This document shows, in pieces, positions 10,832 to 19,923 of a DNA stretch of 64,000 bases. Numbering within the stretch: position 1 is the first letter of the stretch; every line of letters starts with the position of its first letter. Made by a program: the position numbers and the translations under genes. The stretch comes from Parietichytrium sp. I65-24A (Eukaryota > Sar > Bigyra > Thraustochytrida > Thraustochytriidae), in assembly GCA_012862575.1 (NCBI GenBank), contig BLSF01000021.1:1-64000 (forward strand), read 5' to 3'. Below the pieces are notes generated by a model, which worked only from the letters and a program-made list of their open reading frames with translations, was not told the DNA's origin and did no database searches.

Positions 10832-12619
10832 TGCGCGCTGCCTGTAGGTGTGGGAAGATGGGTGCCGGGCCCTAAACGGTTGCTAGCCTGGACGCTAAAG
10901 TGGGACTGAGGAGTCGGGGTTGTGCAGGGAGAGCGTAAGCAGGTGCTAGCGTATATTAGCGCATAAAGTGGACAACGAACACTGAATTCTTCCTTCTTAC
11001 GAGACATTTCTCTTTCACAGCTTTCACAGTCAAGATCTCTCCACACAAGACGCTCTTCTTCTTCTCCCTTCTCCTTACCATTCGCATATACTCATGGTTA
11101 ACAGTCAAGCAAACTTTATTTTGGGAAGCTCTAAAGTCCACCTCCCTTTTTCTAACCCATCGTAAGAATAGTCAGTCCCTCAAATGCCTTTGTCACCTTT
11201 GCATTTGCATGTGCATTTGCATTTGGATTAGCAATTACAATTTACCACTTTGCTCCAGCGCTCAGGCGTTCTGTTCTCTGTTCTGTGTTCTGTGTTCTGT
11301 GTTCTGTCAGACAGGCAGTGTTTCAGTGTTGCGTTGTTGGCACGAGCTCCCAGTGCAATTCGCCCTCATTCATTTCTTGACCTTGCCAACTTGCCTGGCG
11401 AGTTCAGACTCACTCGATCACCCCTACTATTTCTGATAAATAGCTGCTACAACTACATCAGTGAGTCATTAGTTCAGGTTGGTCGCCTTTTCTGAATTCT
11501 GGAACCCAATGTGCCATGAACTGACCTGCGAGTTCTAACAGTACACAGTTTGTGCTGTAAGATTTATCGAGCTCCCTCCACACCCCAAATTTCGAAGAGC
11601 ATCGCAAACAAAAACGGTAATAAAAATGGACACGAAGAAAACATTGCCCCTCACAGGCGCAGAGCGGAAAAAAAAAATGTGACGGCTATAGCACAGCATA
11701 GAAACATGGCCTACGACCTCCACACCTGGTTTGTGGGAGGTCTCTATGGTTACTGATAATACTCATATGTTAGTGATTTTGGTACGACGAGTACGACGCG
11801 TGAGAGAGTGTAGAAACGAGAGTTTGGGTTCCATAGTTCTTTTTCCGGTTCTCGGGTGGAGAACCCATTCCGCCTTGCCAACAGGATGCACCGCATGCAC
11901 TGCGCCGCTAATGACTCGCACTCCCTCTTTCCTTCCTGCTGCTGCTGCCGCACCGTGACGCTCTGCTACACAACGCTCATCGCCTGCGGCCCTTCCCGAC
12001 CCTATCGCGGAACGCATTCTTGCCCGCCTACGAACAAAGAAGGGCCACCTTTTTACAAACAATTCAAAATTCAAAAAGCTTTCGGCCACTTTTTCAGCCC
12101 CGCGTTGATAGCAGTTATATACCGAATTTAATAACCCTTGGGTCACAGCGTCACAGAGTTACAGACACAAACAAGTGTAGTGCGTACACCAGCACATGGT
12201 ACGCGCGTACGCATTGCACGCACACCGGTAGAAACACATAGAACATACGGTAGCGAACAAGGAAGGCAGCCCTTTTGCAACGTACGCACCCACATACAGA
12301 TCATACAAATCATACAAATATCATACAAATAGAGCGGGGGAGAGTGGGGAGAGTGAGGATAAGTAGTTTCCCGCTCCGGGAGTGGGTGAGATAATCGAGA
12401 TAATAAGCGAAGAAGAAGAAGAAGAAGAAGAAATAGCAAGCAGCGAAGCAGCCATCTATCTCTAGCGCTCCTCTTCTCTGCGTCTGGTGTTGAAAAATCT
12501 TTTTGTTGATTTGCTGTTGACTCACTGCCATCTCTCCCGGTCTTCGGTCTTGACTGCGTAGTGGAACCCAAGAGCACTCCGATAAGAGCAGCTGCGGATC
12601 ATCATCAGAATTCAGGAAA
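10832..12619. other. Intergenic region with tandem words
   Basis: About 1.8 kb between two divergent genes. It contains repeated gcatttgcat words at about 11199-11226, repeated gttctgt words at about 11268-11308, and a (GAA)n run just before the WD-repeat gene. No coding region or RNA gene was recognised. Confidence 0.5.
12409..12432. repeat. (GAA)n microsatellite
   Basis: Eight GAA units about 190 bases upstream of the WDR76/CMR1 start codon. Confidence 0.9.
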
Positions 12620-14116
12620 ATGAGCGACTACGAGGCGCAGCGATTGGCTCGCATCCGCGCTAATGCAGAGTTCCTGGAACAGCTCGGCGTGCAGGAAGAT
12701 GTGTCGCGGCAGAAGCGCGAACACGCGCTGGCGAACAAGGCGAACAAGGCGAGCACGTCTCATGCGGCGCCCAAGCGTCGGAAGAGGGTCACGGCACAGG
12801 AGCCACAGCCCCGACGCAAATCCTCTCGGCTGCAAGGCGTGGATGCGGAGGACCTGTATATTCTGTCGGCGTCCCGGGGCAAGGTTCTGGTGGGCGGCAG
12901 GCCGCCCACGATGATGGGCAGCGGGGAAACCCCTGTTACGATGCACGAGCTGGGAAAAGAAGTGCGGCGCGAACGAACCAAGCTGGAGGACCAAGTGCTT
13001 GACCTGGGTTTGGAGGAGGAGGACATGCAGCGGTCAGGAAAGGAGTTTTTCGAGTCGCTCATGAAGAAGAATGGTGCGGTGAACGGCACAGTGGCACAGA
13101 CAAAGTCAGAGTCTTCCCTGGAGTACTCGGAAAAGCTCTCCGCGCTCTCGTGTGAGGTTGCCATTAAGATCACGCCTTCGAGGATATACTCTGTTGGGTT
13201 CCATCCGACTCTGCCACTGGTTTGCTCCGGAGACAAGGAAGGCAATATTGGCCTGTTCCAGCTTGACAAAGATCCTGCGCTGACTGATTCGATCCAGTCC
13301 TACAGGCCACACATGAGCACAGTAAATGTCGTCGAGCTCTCCGAAAACAGCTTGTTGTCATACTCTTACGACGGAACAATACGCTCGATGGACATGAATC
13401 GGCCGGACTTGTTCGACCTAGTCTATAACCACCAAGAAACAGAGGAGGGCGTGTGGCTGCAGCACGGCCTTCAAAATAGCGATCGCTCCGCGCTTTATAT
13501 CGCGCTATCTGACGGCCAAGCCGTCAAGGTCGACAGAAAGAGCAAAACTGCGGCCTGGCGATTCACGCCGCACGACAAGAAGGTTCAAACCGTAAGCCTT
13601 ACCCCCGATGAACACTACTTGGCTACTGCGAGTCTAGACCGCTCCATCAAAATTTGGGACCTTCGTAAGATGCCTTCAAAGTCCGCGGAACCAGGCTCCG
13701 GAGCGCTTTCGACTTTTAACACCACACACAGCGTCAGCGGCTGCTTTTTCAATCCGACGGGGGACAGAGCAGTGGCGGTGACTATGGCCAATAAGTTGCA
13801 CCTCTTTAGCAAACCACAGGATTGCTCCGGTGATCTGGAGCCAGCTCACTCAGTATCTCATGACAATCGAACCGGGCGCTACCTTGCAGTGTTTCACGCT
13901 GCTTGGAACCCGAAGTACCCTTCGTCGTTTATAATAGGTTCGATGGCGCAGCCACGGCGAGTGGAGGTGTACGACTCTGCTGGCGCCAAAATCAAGCTGG
14001 CTATGAACCTCTCGGGAGATTTAGTAGGCTCAGTGCAGAGTCGAAACGCCTTTCACCCTACTTTAGACTACATTGCGTGTGGCAATGCTAGCGGCAAACT
14101 GCACATCTTCAGTTAA
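12620..14116 (+). CDS. CMR1: WDR76/CMR1-type WD-repeat DNA-damage-binding protein, 498 aa
   Basis: The N-terminus MSDYEAQRLARIRANAEFL followed by a basic linker and RRKSSRLQG is the hallmark order of WDR76/CMR1 proteins (E.xR..nI..N..fL, then RRSSRLQ). From about residue 180 onward WD repeats are visible: IYSVGFHPTLPLVCSGDKEG, VNVVELSENSLLSYSYDGTI, VQTVSLTPDEHYLATASLDR, CFFNPTGDRAVAV and a last blade ending NASGKLHIFS. Yeast Cmr1 and human WDR76 bind chromatin and act in DNA-damage and replication-stress responses. Length agrees with the family. The ATG at 12620 has a good A-rich context. It converges on the Roco-protease gene, whose second exon ends about 240 bases away. Confidence 0.85.
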   Translation: MSDYEAQRLARIRANAEFLEQLGVQEDVSRQKREHALANKANKASTSHAAPKRRKRVTAQEPQPRRKSSRLQGVDAEDLYILSASRGKVLVGGRPPTMMGSGETPVTMHELGKEVRRERTKLEDQVLDLGLEEEDMQRSGKEFFESLMKKNGAVNGTVAQTKSESSLEYSEKLSALSCEVAIKITPSRIYSVGFHPTLPLVCSGDKEGNIGLFQLDKDPALTDSIQSYRPHMSTVNVVELSENSLLSYSYDGTIRSMDMNRPDLFDLVYNHQETEEGVWLQHGLQNSDRSALYIALSDGQAVKVDRKSKTAAWRFTPHDKKVQTVSLTPDEHYLATASLDRSIKIWDLRKMPSKSAEPGSGALSTFNTTHSVSGCFFNPTGDRAVAVTMANKLHLFSKPQDCSGDLEPAHSVSHDNRTGRYLAVFHAAWNPKYPSSFIIGSMAQPRRVEVYDSAGAKIKLAMNLSGDLVGSVQSRNAFHPTLDYIACGNASGKLHIFS

Positions 14117-14358: not shown

Positions 14359-17300
14359 TCAATTTGCGTGGGGCCGGATCGATTGCAAAATTGGAACTAG
14401 CTTTGAACTCGAAAGATGCACGCCAAGATCACCTGGAACGGCCTTGGACATAATTCCGACCACTTCGCCCCTCGAGTTTATCAGAGGTCCTCCCGAGCTA
14501 CCGCTATGATTATACGGGGTGGCGTGAATTGCATCCCTGTTATTCGCAAACCCAACGACAAAACCATTATCTACACAAATATCCAGCAGGCGTTAGCAAT
14601 AAAAAATTCAAAAAGAAAAAAAGACAGAATCGCAAGGCCCCGCCTTGTAGAAGCTTTTTGACTTACCCATGCAAATTGTTTCGCCGCGGCCAAGAGGAAA
14701 GCCAAGCAAACTGACAGGATTGCCGATATGCACAAGATCGGAATCTCCAACTCGGGCTTCCGTGGGCAGAGGAAGATCTGCTGGGCCCTCACGAACGAGC
14801 TGGGTGTTTCCAAAGAGCGATGAGAGCTCTTTGTCCCCTCGGGGATGCTCGGAGATTCGGTGTGTCACGCGAAGGACGAGAACATCCAAAAACTCTTCCA
14901 TCTGGTCCCCAGCCACCAAAATTTCGGCCTCGTAGCGCCACGGGGGAATCCTGTCCTCAACTTCAAAGCATCCTATGATCAAGCGATGTGGAGCTCGCGG
15001 CCCGAAAAAGAATTTGCGTTGCTTCTCCACAGGCTTGTAGATAAGATGACAGGCGGTAACGATGATGCCTTTATCCTTATCTGTAACGAATGCAGTCCCC
15101 TGCTCCATGAACCGCTTCGTCACCTCGCAAAAGATAGCAATTCGGCAGATGCAGCGGGCGTCGAAGATCATACCAGACCATAACCTCAGCTCGAAAGGCC
15201 GCAAATGTTGATCAGAATGATCAGCGTCCAGTCCTCCGCTAGAGGTCCGTCGGGGTAGAATGCTCGTGGACTCTTGCAAGCCGGACGGAAGGCGCTCCGG
15301 CGAAGTACTTGGGGCCTGCAACTTGTGGGGGTCGTGAACTTGCACAGGCGTTCTTGGAGGCGTCAAATTACTGCTTGCTCTGTTCACCAACTCATGAGGT
15401 TGCACTCCAAGGCGACTCAGAAACTCTGTTTTAGAGGCAGGTGGAGGTAGCAACCACATGAGAGGACAGTCGTGGTCGCTTATTGAGCTTCTTCGCACTT
15501 CGCACATAATAGAAGTCATTTGGCTTCGGTTCACCACATAGTTGGTGTTGTACATCCCAGAACTTGCGACGGAGTTTACCGACACCTGCCTGATCAGACT
15601 CATTTGGTCAGGATTTCCAGGAAAATTCAATAACTGGCTAAAATGGTTCTCCCAATCTTGCATCAGATCGTCCTGTTGGTAGTAGGCAAAGTTGTCCACG
15701 TCCATGAGCTGAAAAGCGTGCGCATGCCCGAGAGGTTCGTCCGGCTTGAGCCGGGATAGACAGACTGGGCAGCGAACCATGTATACCCAAGTAACACCCA
15801 TGTACTCGTCGATCAAAATGGTTTCGATCACGTCCTTCAGTTTCGTCAGTTGCTCCCACATTTCAAAAAGGGATACTTGGTGGCCCCTAGCGCAAACGTC
15901 CAACACAGCGCGCTCACGATCGTACTGCTCATCGTCCCCGTCGTCAGAACTGTCTGCTTCACGCCCCATTTCGCCTGCAAACGTCTTCTCTTGATGAAGA
16001 TACAGCAAGAGCTTGATTTGTTTACGATCTGCAAGGCGAATGCGAATAATTGAACCGTCGTTCCACGTCCTCGTCTCTGTAGTCTCAGGGTTGAACATTT
16101 CTGAGATCCGTGTTAAAATCTTGGCAATCATGCCCGGTGGACGAAAGCGCGTGAAAACGAACGTCCGCCCAATTTCGATCTCGCCAAGATCCTCCGAGCA
16201 CGATAGTCTTGGCCAACGCTGGTCCAAGTCGATTGACTTTGTGATCAGGCACGGAACCAGCCAGCGCCGAGAGCGGTTGCTGGATGACCGCAGGGGGCTG
16301 CAAACATCGAACTGCTCCAGAACGTTAAACAAGCTATCATAGACGTCCCTGTTGCGGACGTGCGGAAGACCTCTCCTGTCCCTGAAAAATAGCTCTGGCC
16401 AAATATACTCTACCAAGGTCTCGTGCAAGATGCCCTTTTCGGTCAAGTTGACAATGTCTCGGGCAATAATGGACTCTTTGTTAAGGATTGCGCCTTTGCT
16501 GCGCATCCTCTGGGAGTGCGACGTGGAAGAGAGCCTCTTGGCAATGTTGTGGTCCACAACTCGTTTGATGCAGTCCACGATCCACTTGGAGTCAAGGAAG
16601 AGCATACTGCTTGTCCCGCGGTTGTGCACAATTTCGCCAATATCATTGAGGAAGTTCACACTCTGGTGCATGTCCTCAGGCGTCACGGAGAGCCCTCTTT
16701 CGCTTGCAAGGAGCTCCACTTTCGTTTGGAGCTCGTTCCAACTGCAAACCGGCTTGTCCTCGCGCTCTTTGCGGAGTTGGCATATGGCGTCCTCGACGGT
16801 TGCCCAAGTCATGGGGATGCAAGCGAGGCTGCTCACGTGAGGAAACAGAGTATCGTTCGTAACCAGGTCTCGGAGAGCCAGGCGGAGAGCGGGAAAGCCA
16901 TCCAAAGTCACTGCAGAGACGAGAATGACATCGTCCATTACCTGGGGTCTCTGTCGAAGTAGGACCTGGGGCCGCATGTCGTGATATTCGCTGTCATTAA
17001 TCTCTGGAGAAAATTCATCTTCGCCGTCGCCAGCTCCGTTAAGAGACGGCCCAGTAATACTGCTGGCGGCGTACCCCGTCGTCCAGATTCCTCGCTTTGA
17101 GTACGCAGAAGTAACACTCACGGTAGAAGCAAAATCCCCCCCGCCCCCTGCGCCGCCGCGCGCTTCTTCCTCTTCCTCGTAAATTACAGCCTGAAGGTCA
17201 TTCTTTTGCCACGTTTCTTGTTGCATCACCCTCTTCTTTAACAAGCTGATTCGCTCCTGCGCCTGCTCTGGCGTGACGGTGTCGCACTTGGATGCGATGA

Positions 17301-19923
17301 TCTGGATGACGGCGCCAGGAACTCGAGCTTGCACGGAATAGATCCAAAAGCAAACCTCGGAATCTATCTCGGCTACGCTGCACTTGTTAATATCCCAGAC
17401 AATCAAGTACAAAGTCCTTCGCGACAAAAATAGCTGATGCGATCTGTAGTAGACGGACTGCCCTGCAAAATCCCACAACGTGAGCTTATAATTCCCGCCA
17501 GACACATCACCAGGTGCAGAATCACAAGATTGGAACTCTCCGTCTGAGAGCACAGAGCAATTGTAGATGTCAACACCAAATGTCCGGGCCTCCTCCGCCA
17601 TAGTTTCACTCTTCCCGTTAACTAAACTTCGAATCATAGAAGTCTTCCCCGCTTCTTCATGTCCAAGAACAACGACCTTGAATTGATGATTTGATCCGTG
17701 CTGAACGGCTCCGACTTGCTCTTGAGGCTCCTGAACACTAACAATTTTGTCTACCGCGCTTGCTCGAGGAATTGCAAGAGCTGGAGATGGATCTGATCGC
17801 AACTTAGAAACTGGATCTCTGTCAGAAGCTTTCGCGCGACTAAGCCCCGAACTTGTGGTCAAGGGAACGCTTGATATTCCAGAGCTCGATAAAGTACGGA
17901 TGGAGAACGCAGGGCTGAAATGAGAGTGATAACCTTGCCCGCCATGAACCGGCAACGCCAACAGTGTCGGCAACTCTTCTGGGGCACCGAGGCCATGGAT
18001 CATCTCACGAGAACCTACGTCCTTCGGAGCTGCTTCGTCTTGTTGTTGAGATATGTCCTGCTTCTCTTGCTCTTCTTCGTCCTTCTCAATTTCCTCCAAA
18101 TCGGTCTCTTCCACGCTGAACACGCCCAGCATCGATGGCTGGTGAGATACAGGGGCGACATCGATGGTTTCAGCAGCATTTGATTGTCCACTTGACGGCC
18201 GTGGGTCTTGCGGGGAAACCTGCTGCTGCCCAACGTTGAGAAGTCGCGCACCGTCATTGGTAAGACTCCAAAAAAACCTTCGCACAGATTCAGGGCCACT
18301 GAGAGCCACACTCAACGGGGGAAGCTGCAGAGGATTACCATTTGCGCGCAAGACCTTGAGTCGGTCCATGAATTTGAAACAAGTTGGCAGAGCCGTGATC
18401 CCATTCGTGTGTATTGAAAGTTGCTCCAGCTTTAAAATTGCCTCAAAGAAGCGGGAGTCCAGAAGTCCACTCAGATTATTCATCCCGAGGTCCAGATTTT
18501 TTAACGACTTTCCCAATGTGCCGCACAAAGTCGTGATGAATTCCCTTGAGACCTCCTCTGAATCACTTGGGATTAGCTCCTTGATGTGGTTGTCTCTCAG
18601 ATCGAGTGTTTCGATCCGAGGGGCAGTGATAAGTTGTCTTGGGAATGCGCGCAGATTGTTGTGGCTAGCTGATAATACACTGAGGCTGAATAATTCGCTA
18701 AAGTCAGGGAAGGACATCTCCGTGAGGCGGTTATAGTCCAGTATGAGATGTGCGAGGTTGTGCAAATTCGAAAGGTGTCGAGGGAGTCGACGCAATTTGT
18801 TTCTACTGAGGTCCAAGATAACGAGCCGGGAGAGAAAATTTGGCTCGCGGACAACCCGCCGCAAACCATGTATAGTATAAAAGCCACCTCCTCGAAAGCT
18901 CAGTTCCACAGAGGTTTCCGTGCCCCACTTTTGAACAATCTTTTTGCACTTGCCTTTGAGTGAGCGAAGGAGTTTCGAGTCCTTCACCCTGCGATGGTGG
19001 TGATGCCGAATGTTGCCATGCTCATCCAGTTCCGACATGCAGCCGACTTCTTCCGAGCCTACGCTCACAAGATCGTTTTGCTTACCTTCTAGCCCCAAAT
19101 GCTCTTGGCGCCCATCCTCATCAAAAGAACCCGACTGCTTGCGAGCTGAGGGGCTCAGAGATGAACTTATCCTGGTTGAGTTTTTGAGGAAATGGTTTTT
19201 GGTTGTCTGTGTAATTGCAGACTCCTCCACGGAGTCTACAAAGTGGTGAAAAACATCTAGGTTATCAGAGGAAACCGAGTCATCCAGCTCCGTGGAAGCA
19301 AGGTTTCTCAGTTGGCTTGTCCCGGTGCTATCCCCATAATGATCGTGTTCATCGTCAGATTGCGAACTAGAATCTGATTCTTCTGACGAAAATGACTCTG
19401 AAGAAAGTGAGCTCCCGCTCGAAAATCTCCGCAAGCGCGGCTCAATATGTGCTTCCAAGTCCTCGTCCCCGTCGTCGACTACGCCATCCGAGCCATCGTC
19501 AACAGACTCATCAAACTCTGTTGACTCTAGCACCCTCATGCCAGGCCGGTAGGGCGGTGGCCAGCCAATGGATCCTGGACTGGAGCTCAAAATGGGGGCG
19601 GCGTTGTAGCTCTTCGACCCCGACTTCTTCTGCTCGTACCGTTTGCTCCTCGTGGTCCACCTTCTTCGGGAGCGACTGTTGTAATTTGTGGAGGCACTTG
19701 TCACCGCGGTCCTAGCGCTCGCTGAGCTCATTAAAGTGTCTGCTGATGCGTTTGTCGCCGCCGATGGCGACGGCCTCCTCCGAGTAGGTTTTGGCGTTGC
19801 CCTTCTCTTCCCATTCCTGCTCATCCTGCGGTTCATCAGGTCATCTTCGATTTCCAGCGCGTTCTCCACCAGCTCGTTCATGCCCTTGTTCTGCTTGCCG
19901 CCGCCCACGATCCTGTCCTCCAT
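14359..19923 (-). CDS. LRR-Roc-COR (Roco) GTPase fused to a trypsin-like serine protease, 2 exons, 1822 aa
   Basis: Join of exon 1 (19923 down to 14667) and exon 2 (14570 down to 14359). Residues 1-330 are low-complexity, Ser/Asp-rich. Leucine-rich repeats lie at about 355-530. The Roc GTPase domain (about 750-905) has P-loop GHEEAGKTS, switch-II DFAGQ and SKCD for guanine recognition. A COR-like region follows to about 1310. The C-terminus (about 1605-1822) is a chymotrypsin-fold protease: His in IVTACHLIY, Asp in FLDVLVLRV, and Ser in SGSSGGPLIN, which lies entirely in exon 2. All three catalytic residues are therefore present once the intron is removed. Roco proteins act in signalling and often carry a kinase; none is seen here. 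The frame opens at a GTG (19935), but the first ATG is 19923. Without splicing the frame would end 59 bases into the intron and lose the catalytic serine. Confidence 0.85.
14571..14666 (-). other. Spliceosomal intron, 96 nt, in the Roco-protease gene
   Basis: On the minus strand the donor is G|GTAAGT and the acceptor is TTTGTGTAG|ATAATGG. A TGCTAAC branch-point-like box lies about 20 bases before the acceptor, close to the fungal/algal TACTAAC consensus. Removal joins phase 1 to give an Asp codon and continues the protease fold through its catalytic serine to a stop at 14359. It is the only intron I can support in the window. Confidence 0.85.

Follow-up and report, generated by a model that had tools for sequence, protein, structure and literature searches.

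The locus considered here raises the question of whether one gene joins a Roco GTPase to a serine protease and, if so, what kind of protease it is, how the fusion arose and what it might do. The window (the whole stretch of DNA that was analysed) comprises 64,000 nucleotides, positions 1 to 64,000 of contig BLSF01000021.1 from Parietichytrium sp. I65-24A (assembly GCA_012862575.1). The gene lies on its minus strand at 14359..19923; the original prediction had placed leucine-rich repeats (LRR), a Roc region and a COR-like region there, ahead of a complete trypsin-fold domain.

That a Roco GTPase and a complete protease domain are encoded in one gene was confirmed by the reading frame, by Pfam and by the catalytic triad. 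The gene has two exons (19923..14667 and 14570..14359), and the spliced coding sequence keeps one frame between its ATG and its TGA (1822 amino acids).

14667..19923, minus strand: exon 1 (codons 1–1752 plus one base), from the N-terminus through LRR, Roc and COR to the His and Asp of the protease
14571..14666, minus strand: intron of 96 bases, GTAAGT...TAG, with the junction as in relatives P0001, P0002 and P0005
14359..14570, minus strand: exon 2, the protease end with the catalytic Ser and the stop codon TGA

The intron (14666..14571; ends GTAAGT...TGTGTAG) has a GC content of 38.5%, compared with 52.1% and 49.5% in the exons. The joined TICMDNGFVVGF of the spliced window protein aligns with TICMDSGSVVGF of relative P0001; the intron is therefore supported by homology. 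The exon junction agrees with that of P0001, P0002 and P0005. The positions were rechecked, and the predicted coordinates, intron and motifs all proved right.

Only the catalytic Ser depends on removal of the intron. One open frame, 1776 codons from stop to stop, runs from the N-terminus through LRR, Roc and COR to the His and Asp of the protease, and the fusion is therefore independent of the intron. The five closest relatives (P0001–P0005; 39–48% identity, covering 69–100% of the query region) share the domain order of the window protein, and P0001, the sources of which include the MMETSP transcriptome set, holds both parts in one protein. The Ser-bearing end behind an intron is what might suggest that adjacent genes, or pieces misjoined in assembly, had been taken as one. 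Given the frame, the relatives' domain order and the transcriptome source of P0001, we regard this as extremely improbable and reject separate genes. Separate transcripts for the two parts, which the original prediction had named as its refutation, are likewise contradicted, to the extent that relatives can show it.

Domains were assigned with Pfam on the spliced protein. LRR_8 (E 3.3e-12), Roc, COR-A and Trypsin_2 follow one another in this order, and each exceeds its curated cut-off. The predicted LRR and Roc regions ahead of the protease were thus borne out, and the 'COR-like' region is a true COR-A match. Roc is followed by COR and the nucleotide-binding motifs GHEEAGKT, DFAGQ and SKCD are intact, as expected of a Roco protein.

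18919..19923, minus strand: N-terminal region, residues 1–335, Ser-rich and charged, 25% identity to P0001, without a Pfam domain
18244..18918, minus strand: leucine-rich repeats, residues ~336–560 (borders set by hand), Pfam LRR_8 and LRR_4, 46–58% identity in P0001–P0005
17281..17679, minus strand: Roc GTPase, residues 749–881, with GHEEAGKT, DFAGQ and SKCD, Pfam Roc 1.4e-16
17641..17664, minus strand: P-loop, residues 754–761, Lys in 109/109 rows with a letter there (124 rows)
16246..16815, minus strand: COR-A, residues 1037–1226, Pfam 1.3e-10 (1.3e-9 in the genome search)
15604..16233, minus strand: COR-B-like region, residues ~1231–1440 (approximate borders), from the alignment to P0006
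15760..15771, minus strand: CPVC, residues 1385–1388, first half of a C-x-x-C...C...H set whose Cys, Cys, Cys, His are kept in 40/40 aligned relatives

The region of residues ~1231–1440 gave no Pfam match to COR-B. The best solved match to Roc by sequence was LRRK2 (9.9e-15), and the predicted model of P0006, a diatom-type member of the family, matches LRRK2 Roc–COR up to model residue 872. At the end of COR, the Cys, Cys, Cys, His set is kept in 40/40 aligned protease Rocos (residues 822, 825, 855 and 859 in P0006), and a loose pattern for CxxC...C...H was found in 118 of 120 relatives. None of the five TIR-Rocos checked in this genome has CxxC; the coral Roco P0064 does carry CxxC motifs. 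This set in front of the protease is a possible zinc site.

The search with the spliced protein retained the protease fold (Trypsin_2). For the triad, the window protein was compared with 125 family proteins, and the family protease profile matched 121 of these 126.

14452..15099, minus strand: HtrA-type serine protease (Trypsin_2), residues 1609–1792, spanning the intron, Pfam 4.4e-15
15046..15048, minus strand: catalytic His1626, His in 121/121
14884..14886, minus strand: catalytic Asp1680, Asp in 121/121
14494..14496, minus strand: catalytic Ser1778 (GSSGGP), Ser in 120/121, the remaining one a gap

The best solved protease matches by sequence were DegP, HhoA and HTRA1 (best 3.6e-6), and the protease of the P0006 model is DegP/HtrA1-like, behind an LRRK2-like Roc–COR. 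Judged by sequence, the domain is a PA-clan serine protease of HtrA/Deg type rather than a classical trypsin. The predicted trypsin fold thus stands as a Trypsin_2 match with a full His–Asp–Ser triad, and its class is revised. Scanning Pfam to E 1 revealed no PDZ domain, and the protein ends 30 residues past the Trypsin_2 match. Because the C-terminal PDZ is missing, this is an HtrA-like protease domain and not an HtrA protein in the strict sense. No export signal was seen in a crude test. The fold and triad are those of HtrA/Deg proteases (DegP, DegS, DegQ, HtrA1), from which the Roco protease differs in these two absences and in being fused behind Roc–COR.

The full triad and the GxSGG glycines are present in 120 of the 121 matched proteins (the window protein and 120 of the 125 relatives), the exception being P0180 with a gap at Ser. 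This conservation argues against a dead or structural module that would bind substrate or peptide on a Roco scaffold, which we consider improbable.

Of the 12 proteins returned by the first search, 11 carry Roc, COR-A and PF13365, and a family profile was built from these 11. It gave 230 matches, of which 120 were listed, with domains taken from the precomputed Pfam column. Among these 120, PF13365 is present in 114 and PF13365 together with Roc in 98; some of those without both domains are short pieces. Several listed members are transcriptome entries. The readable organism names among the listed matches are diatoms (Pseudo-nitzschia, Nitzschia, Mayamaea, Epithemia, Cylindrotheca, Thalassiosira, Skeletonema and Odontella).

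Among the names of the five closest relatives are Mucochytrium quahogii and Hondaea fermentalgiana, which we take to be labyrinthulomycetes. One of the five, P0002, falls in the labyrinthulomycete-type clade and was deposited as the dinoflagellate Durusdinium trenchii; contamination or mislabelling is possible. The red-alga setting assumed in the original prediction was wrong: the nearest relatives of this gene and of a TIR-Roco of the same genome are labyrinthulomycetes, and the light-harvesting family PF00504 gave no match in the genome. By these relatives, the organism would most likely be a labyrinthulomycete.

Between the window protein and P0001, identity is 52–58% in LRR, Roc, COR and protease and 19–32% in the N-terminus and linkers. 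From this pattern the domains can be said, at the level of sequence, to evolve together as a unit.

A quick Roc–COR tree was calculated from 110 regions without bootstrap. In this tree one clade, with a support of 99 in the Shimodaira–Hasegawa-like approximate likelihood-ratio test (SH-aLRT), unites 24 protease Rocos with P0012, a protein of diatom type for which no protease is listed. Its labyrinthulomycete-type and diatom-type halves have a support of 100 each. Three TIR-Rocos of this genome come out as sisters of this clade, on a long branch with an SH-aLRT of 92 that is not starred. The protease tree contained 39 domains, namely 22 Roco proteases and 17 Trypsin_2 rows from this genome and from bacteria. 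For the latter, 23 other loci (9 own, 14 bacterial) had been offered and 17 passed the match and length filter, 13 from bacteria and four from this genome, two of which represent one gene. The 22 Roco proteases lie together on one side of a branch (92/83, not starred), where long branches meet. Together the two trees would fit a single ancient fusion in stramenopiles, before the labyrinthulomycete and diatom lineages split.

In the search for a bacterial source of the fusion, no Roco–trypsin protein was found in the prokaryotic samples examined, although such proteins are reported in bacteria (PMC8195603). The family profile found no relative in the prokaryotic contig collection. A scan with the WDFGGQE pattern gave at least 114 prokaryotic loci, and 117 Roc open reading frames (ORFs) were taken from 113 of them (L119 had none; 25 ORFs were cut at the 3' edge of the locus). 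None of these 117 matched the family profile at E 0.1; there was one phmmer match at E 0.089 (L122, 4.4 bits) and one lone GISGG (L136). In the controls, querying with three Trypsin_2 ORFs recovered 121 of the 126 family sequences, and all three ORFs were in turn recovered by the family profile. The 29 prokaryotic genomes gave 84 COR-A places and 306 Trypsin_2 matches. No Roco–Trypsin_2 fusion was found beside the 84 COR-A places, among the best of the 306 Trypsin_2 matches. Four contigs hold both a listed COR-A and a listed Trypsin_2 (compared by eye), none nearer than 18.8 kb.

As to function, we favour, with moderate confidence, a cytosolic multi-domain signalling protease in which a cue at the LRR would be passed through a Roc–COR switch to an HtrA-type protease output. 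The leucine-rich repeats and the long, poorly conserved N-terminus would receive the cue, the Roc GTPase with its COR dimerization domain would be the switch, and the C-terminal HtrA/Deg-type protease without PDZ would be the output. That the protease is active and that a GTP switch controls it, as the original prediction had it, is plausible. HtrA proteases require oligomerization and loop ordering for activity. In CtRoco, GTP binding yields the active monomer, the LRR–Roc linker serving as a hinge (PMC11052575). Combined, the two suggest a testable rule by which nucleotide state might determine assembly state, and assembly state proteolysis. The Roc–COR nucleotide state (dimer versus monomer) would then switch the protease through its oligomeric state or its activation loops.

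More tentatively, and with slightly less than an even chance in our estimate, the family as a whole would be a GTP-gated protease that descends from a single ancient stramenopile fusion and in which an LRRK2-like Roc–COR has replaced PDZ as the regulatory input. The fusion is retained with an intact triad in diatoms and labyrinthulomycetes, and brown-algal peptidase ROCOs are reported in the available part of PMC11378527.

Several points weigh against this picture of a gated protease. The usable structural model is that of a diatom-type member and not of the window protein; the labyrinthulomycete protease model was poor (predicted local distance difference test, pLDDT, 52; three sequences) and was not used. 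Five of the 125 family proteins (P0169, P0171, P0172, P0181 and P0182) gave no match to the protease profile; these are possibly broken gene models. Most diatom-type members have lost the Lys of the fourth GTPase motif (K in 8 of 124 rows: the window protein, P0001–P0005, P0131 and P0160). The listed diatom-type members that lost it retain the P-loop and DFAGQ, and nucleotide handling may differ between the branches.

By analogy with bacterial proteins, the same architecture could instead be an intracellular immune or self/non-self receptor, in which the LRR would detect an invader, Roc–COR would switch and the protease would execute defence or cell death. In the excerpts available, bacterial LRR–Roc–COR proteins with swapped effectors (TIR, trypsin) are interpreted as counter-invader systems (PMC8195603) and brown-algal ROCOs are termed candidate immune receptors (PMC11378527). 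The other Rocos of this genome also bear on the point. In the assembly (42.5 Mb, 172 contigs) COR-A was found at 11 places, ten of them over the cut-off, one being the window gene. At nine of the ten other places the ORF ends in a TIR_2 domain that exceeds the cut-off, so that the same chassis carries an immune-type output there.

Contigs C73, C12, C4, C35 (two, adjoining), C81, C107, C75 and C10 (loci L020–L027): TIR-Roco ORFs

The remaining place (C2) has Roc and a COR-A below the cut-off, without TIR. Among the relatives of one TIR-Roco of this genome, 11 of 56 matches are named Hondaea fermentalgiana. The nine places and these relatives look like a TIR-Roco expansion in labyrinthulomycetes. 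The protease Roco behaves otherwise. The protease part of P0001 matched the window gene alone in the genome search (30 of 60 candidates scored), so this search revealed no second copy. The LRRs of the protease Roco match its GTPase in conservation (46–58% versus 55–59% in P0001–P0005), unlike those of a diversifying receptor. Matches to NCBIfam and PADLOC were below the cut-off or partial only: exon 1 of the window gene had no PADLOC model match at E 0.001, and P0001 and P0006 matched the RT-Protease and LeoA models partially at most. We hold an immune receptor to be less likely, although it is the most serious of the alternatives. With no second copy found and the LRRs conserved, the signalling protease would more readily belong to a conserved pathway of stress or signalling than be a rapidly evolving receptor of immunity. 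The TIR-Rocos of this genome and the bacterial and brown-algal proposals pull towards immunity, and the role could lie in stress, turnover or defence.

The original prediction had taken the combination to be new. It had already been published, in brown algae and other SAR organisms (PMC11378527) and in bacteria (PMC8195603), as far as the available excerpts of both papers go. The former (2024) describes a C-terminal peptidase (IPR009003) on LRR-ROC in brown-algal ROCO group 3, with three brown-algal genes nested with other SAR ROCOs, some of which have the peptidase. Like the window protein these are LRR–Roc–COR proteins with a C-terminal peptidase from the same supergroup (compared by description only). 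In those excerpts the group is treated in a few sentences, without the triad or structure analysis made here. The latter (2021) counts at least 24 kinds of C-terminal domain on bacterial LRR–Roc–COR proteins and names trypsin as one of them. These AP-GTPases resemble the window protein in having LRR, Roc, COR and then a variable C-terminal domain; they differ, according to the same excerpts, in being prokaryotic, with rapidly evolving LRRs and paralogues with different effectors. The TPR-ROCO-TIR of Chondrus (PMC11378527, same excerpts) and the Roc–COR–TIR proteins of this genome and Hondaea likewise join Roc–COR to a C-terminal effector-type domain. In them TIR replaces the protease, and the ten scanned ORFs of this genome have no Pfam LRR (further exons are possible). 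The main text of the Roco review PMC6337361 nowhere mentions protease, peptidase or trypsin, and no functional study of the Roco–protease architecture was found in the open-licence literature. The architecture is thus known but hardly described, and it is well conserved and easily testable. Added here are a labyrinthulomycete member, the conservation of the triad and the TIR ends at nine of the ten other COR-A places.

LRRK2 and LRRK1 share the Roc–COR core with the window protein, LRRK2 being the best solved match to Roc by sequence and to the modelled Roc–COR of P0006 by structure. Their output is a protein kinase, and that of the window protein a protease. The output of LRRK2 and LRRK1 also includes WD40. 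In the alignment LRRK2 has DFAGR where the window protein has DFAGQ. How Roc–COR controls an attached enzyme is an open question in LRRK2 biology, according to the excerpts of PMC11052575. A conserved, naturally occurring Roco in which a protease replaces the kinase would offer a second output for testing generic coupling, with a simple peptide-cleavage readout. Should the proposal hold, no earlier Roco would have been shown to signal by proteolysis, and the protein would serve as a model for Roc–COR driving an attached enzyme. The presence of TIR and protease outputs in this genome hints that protists, as bacteria do, retain a single Roco chassis and exchange its outputs.

Two further observations concern the surroundings. 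A convergent neighbour at 12554–14116, a 520-codon open frame with WD40 repeats, ends ~240 bases from the Roco stop codon. Elsewhere in the genome, the bacterial-type polyunsaturated fatty acid (PUFA) synthase model TIGR02813 had no match over the cut-off (best 143.8 bits; cut-off 1010.1), which speaks against a thraustochytrid of the type that has a PUFA synthase. A 5583-codon open frame (C66:8562-22499) has four ketosynthase-region stretches that resemble PfaA, with scores under the cut-off of that model, and is probably a modular polyketide or fatty-acid synthase.

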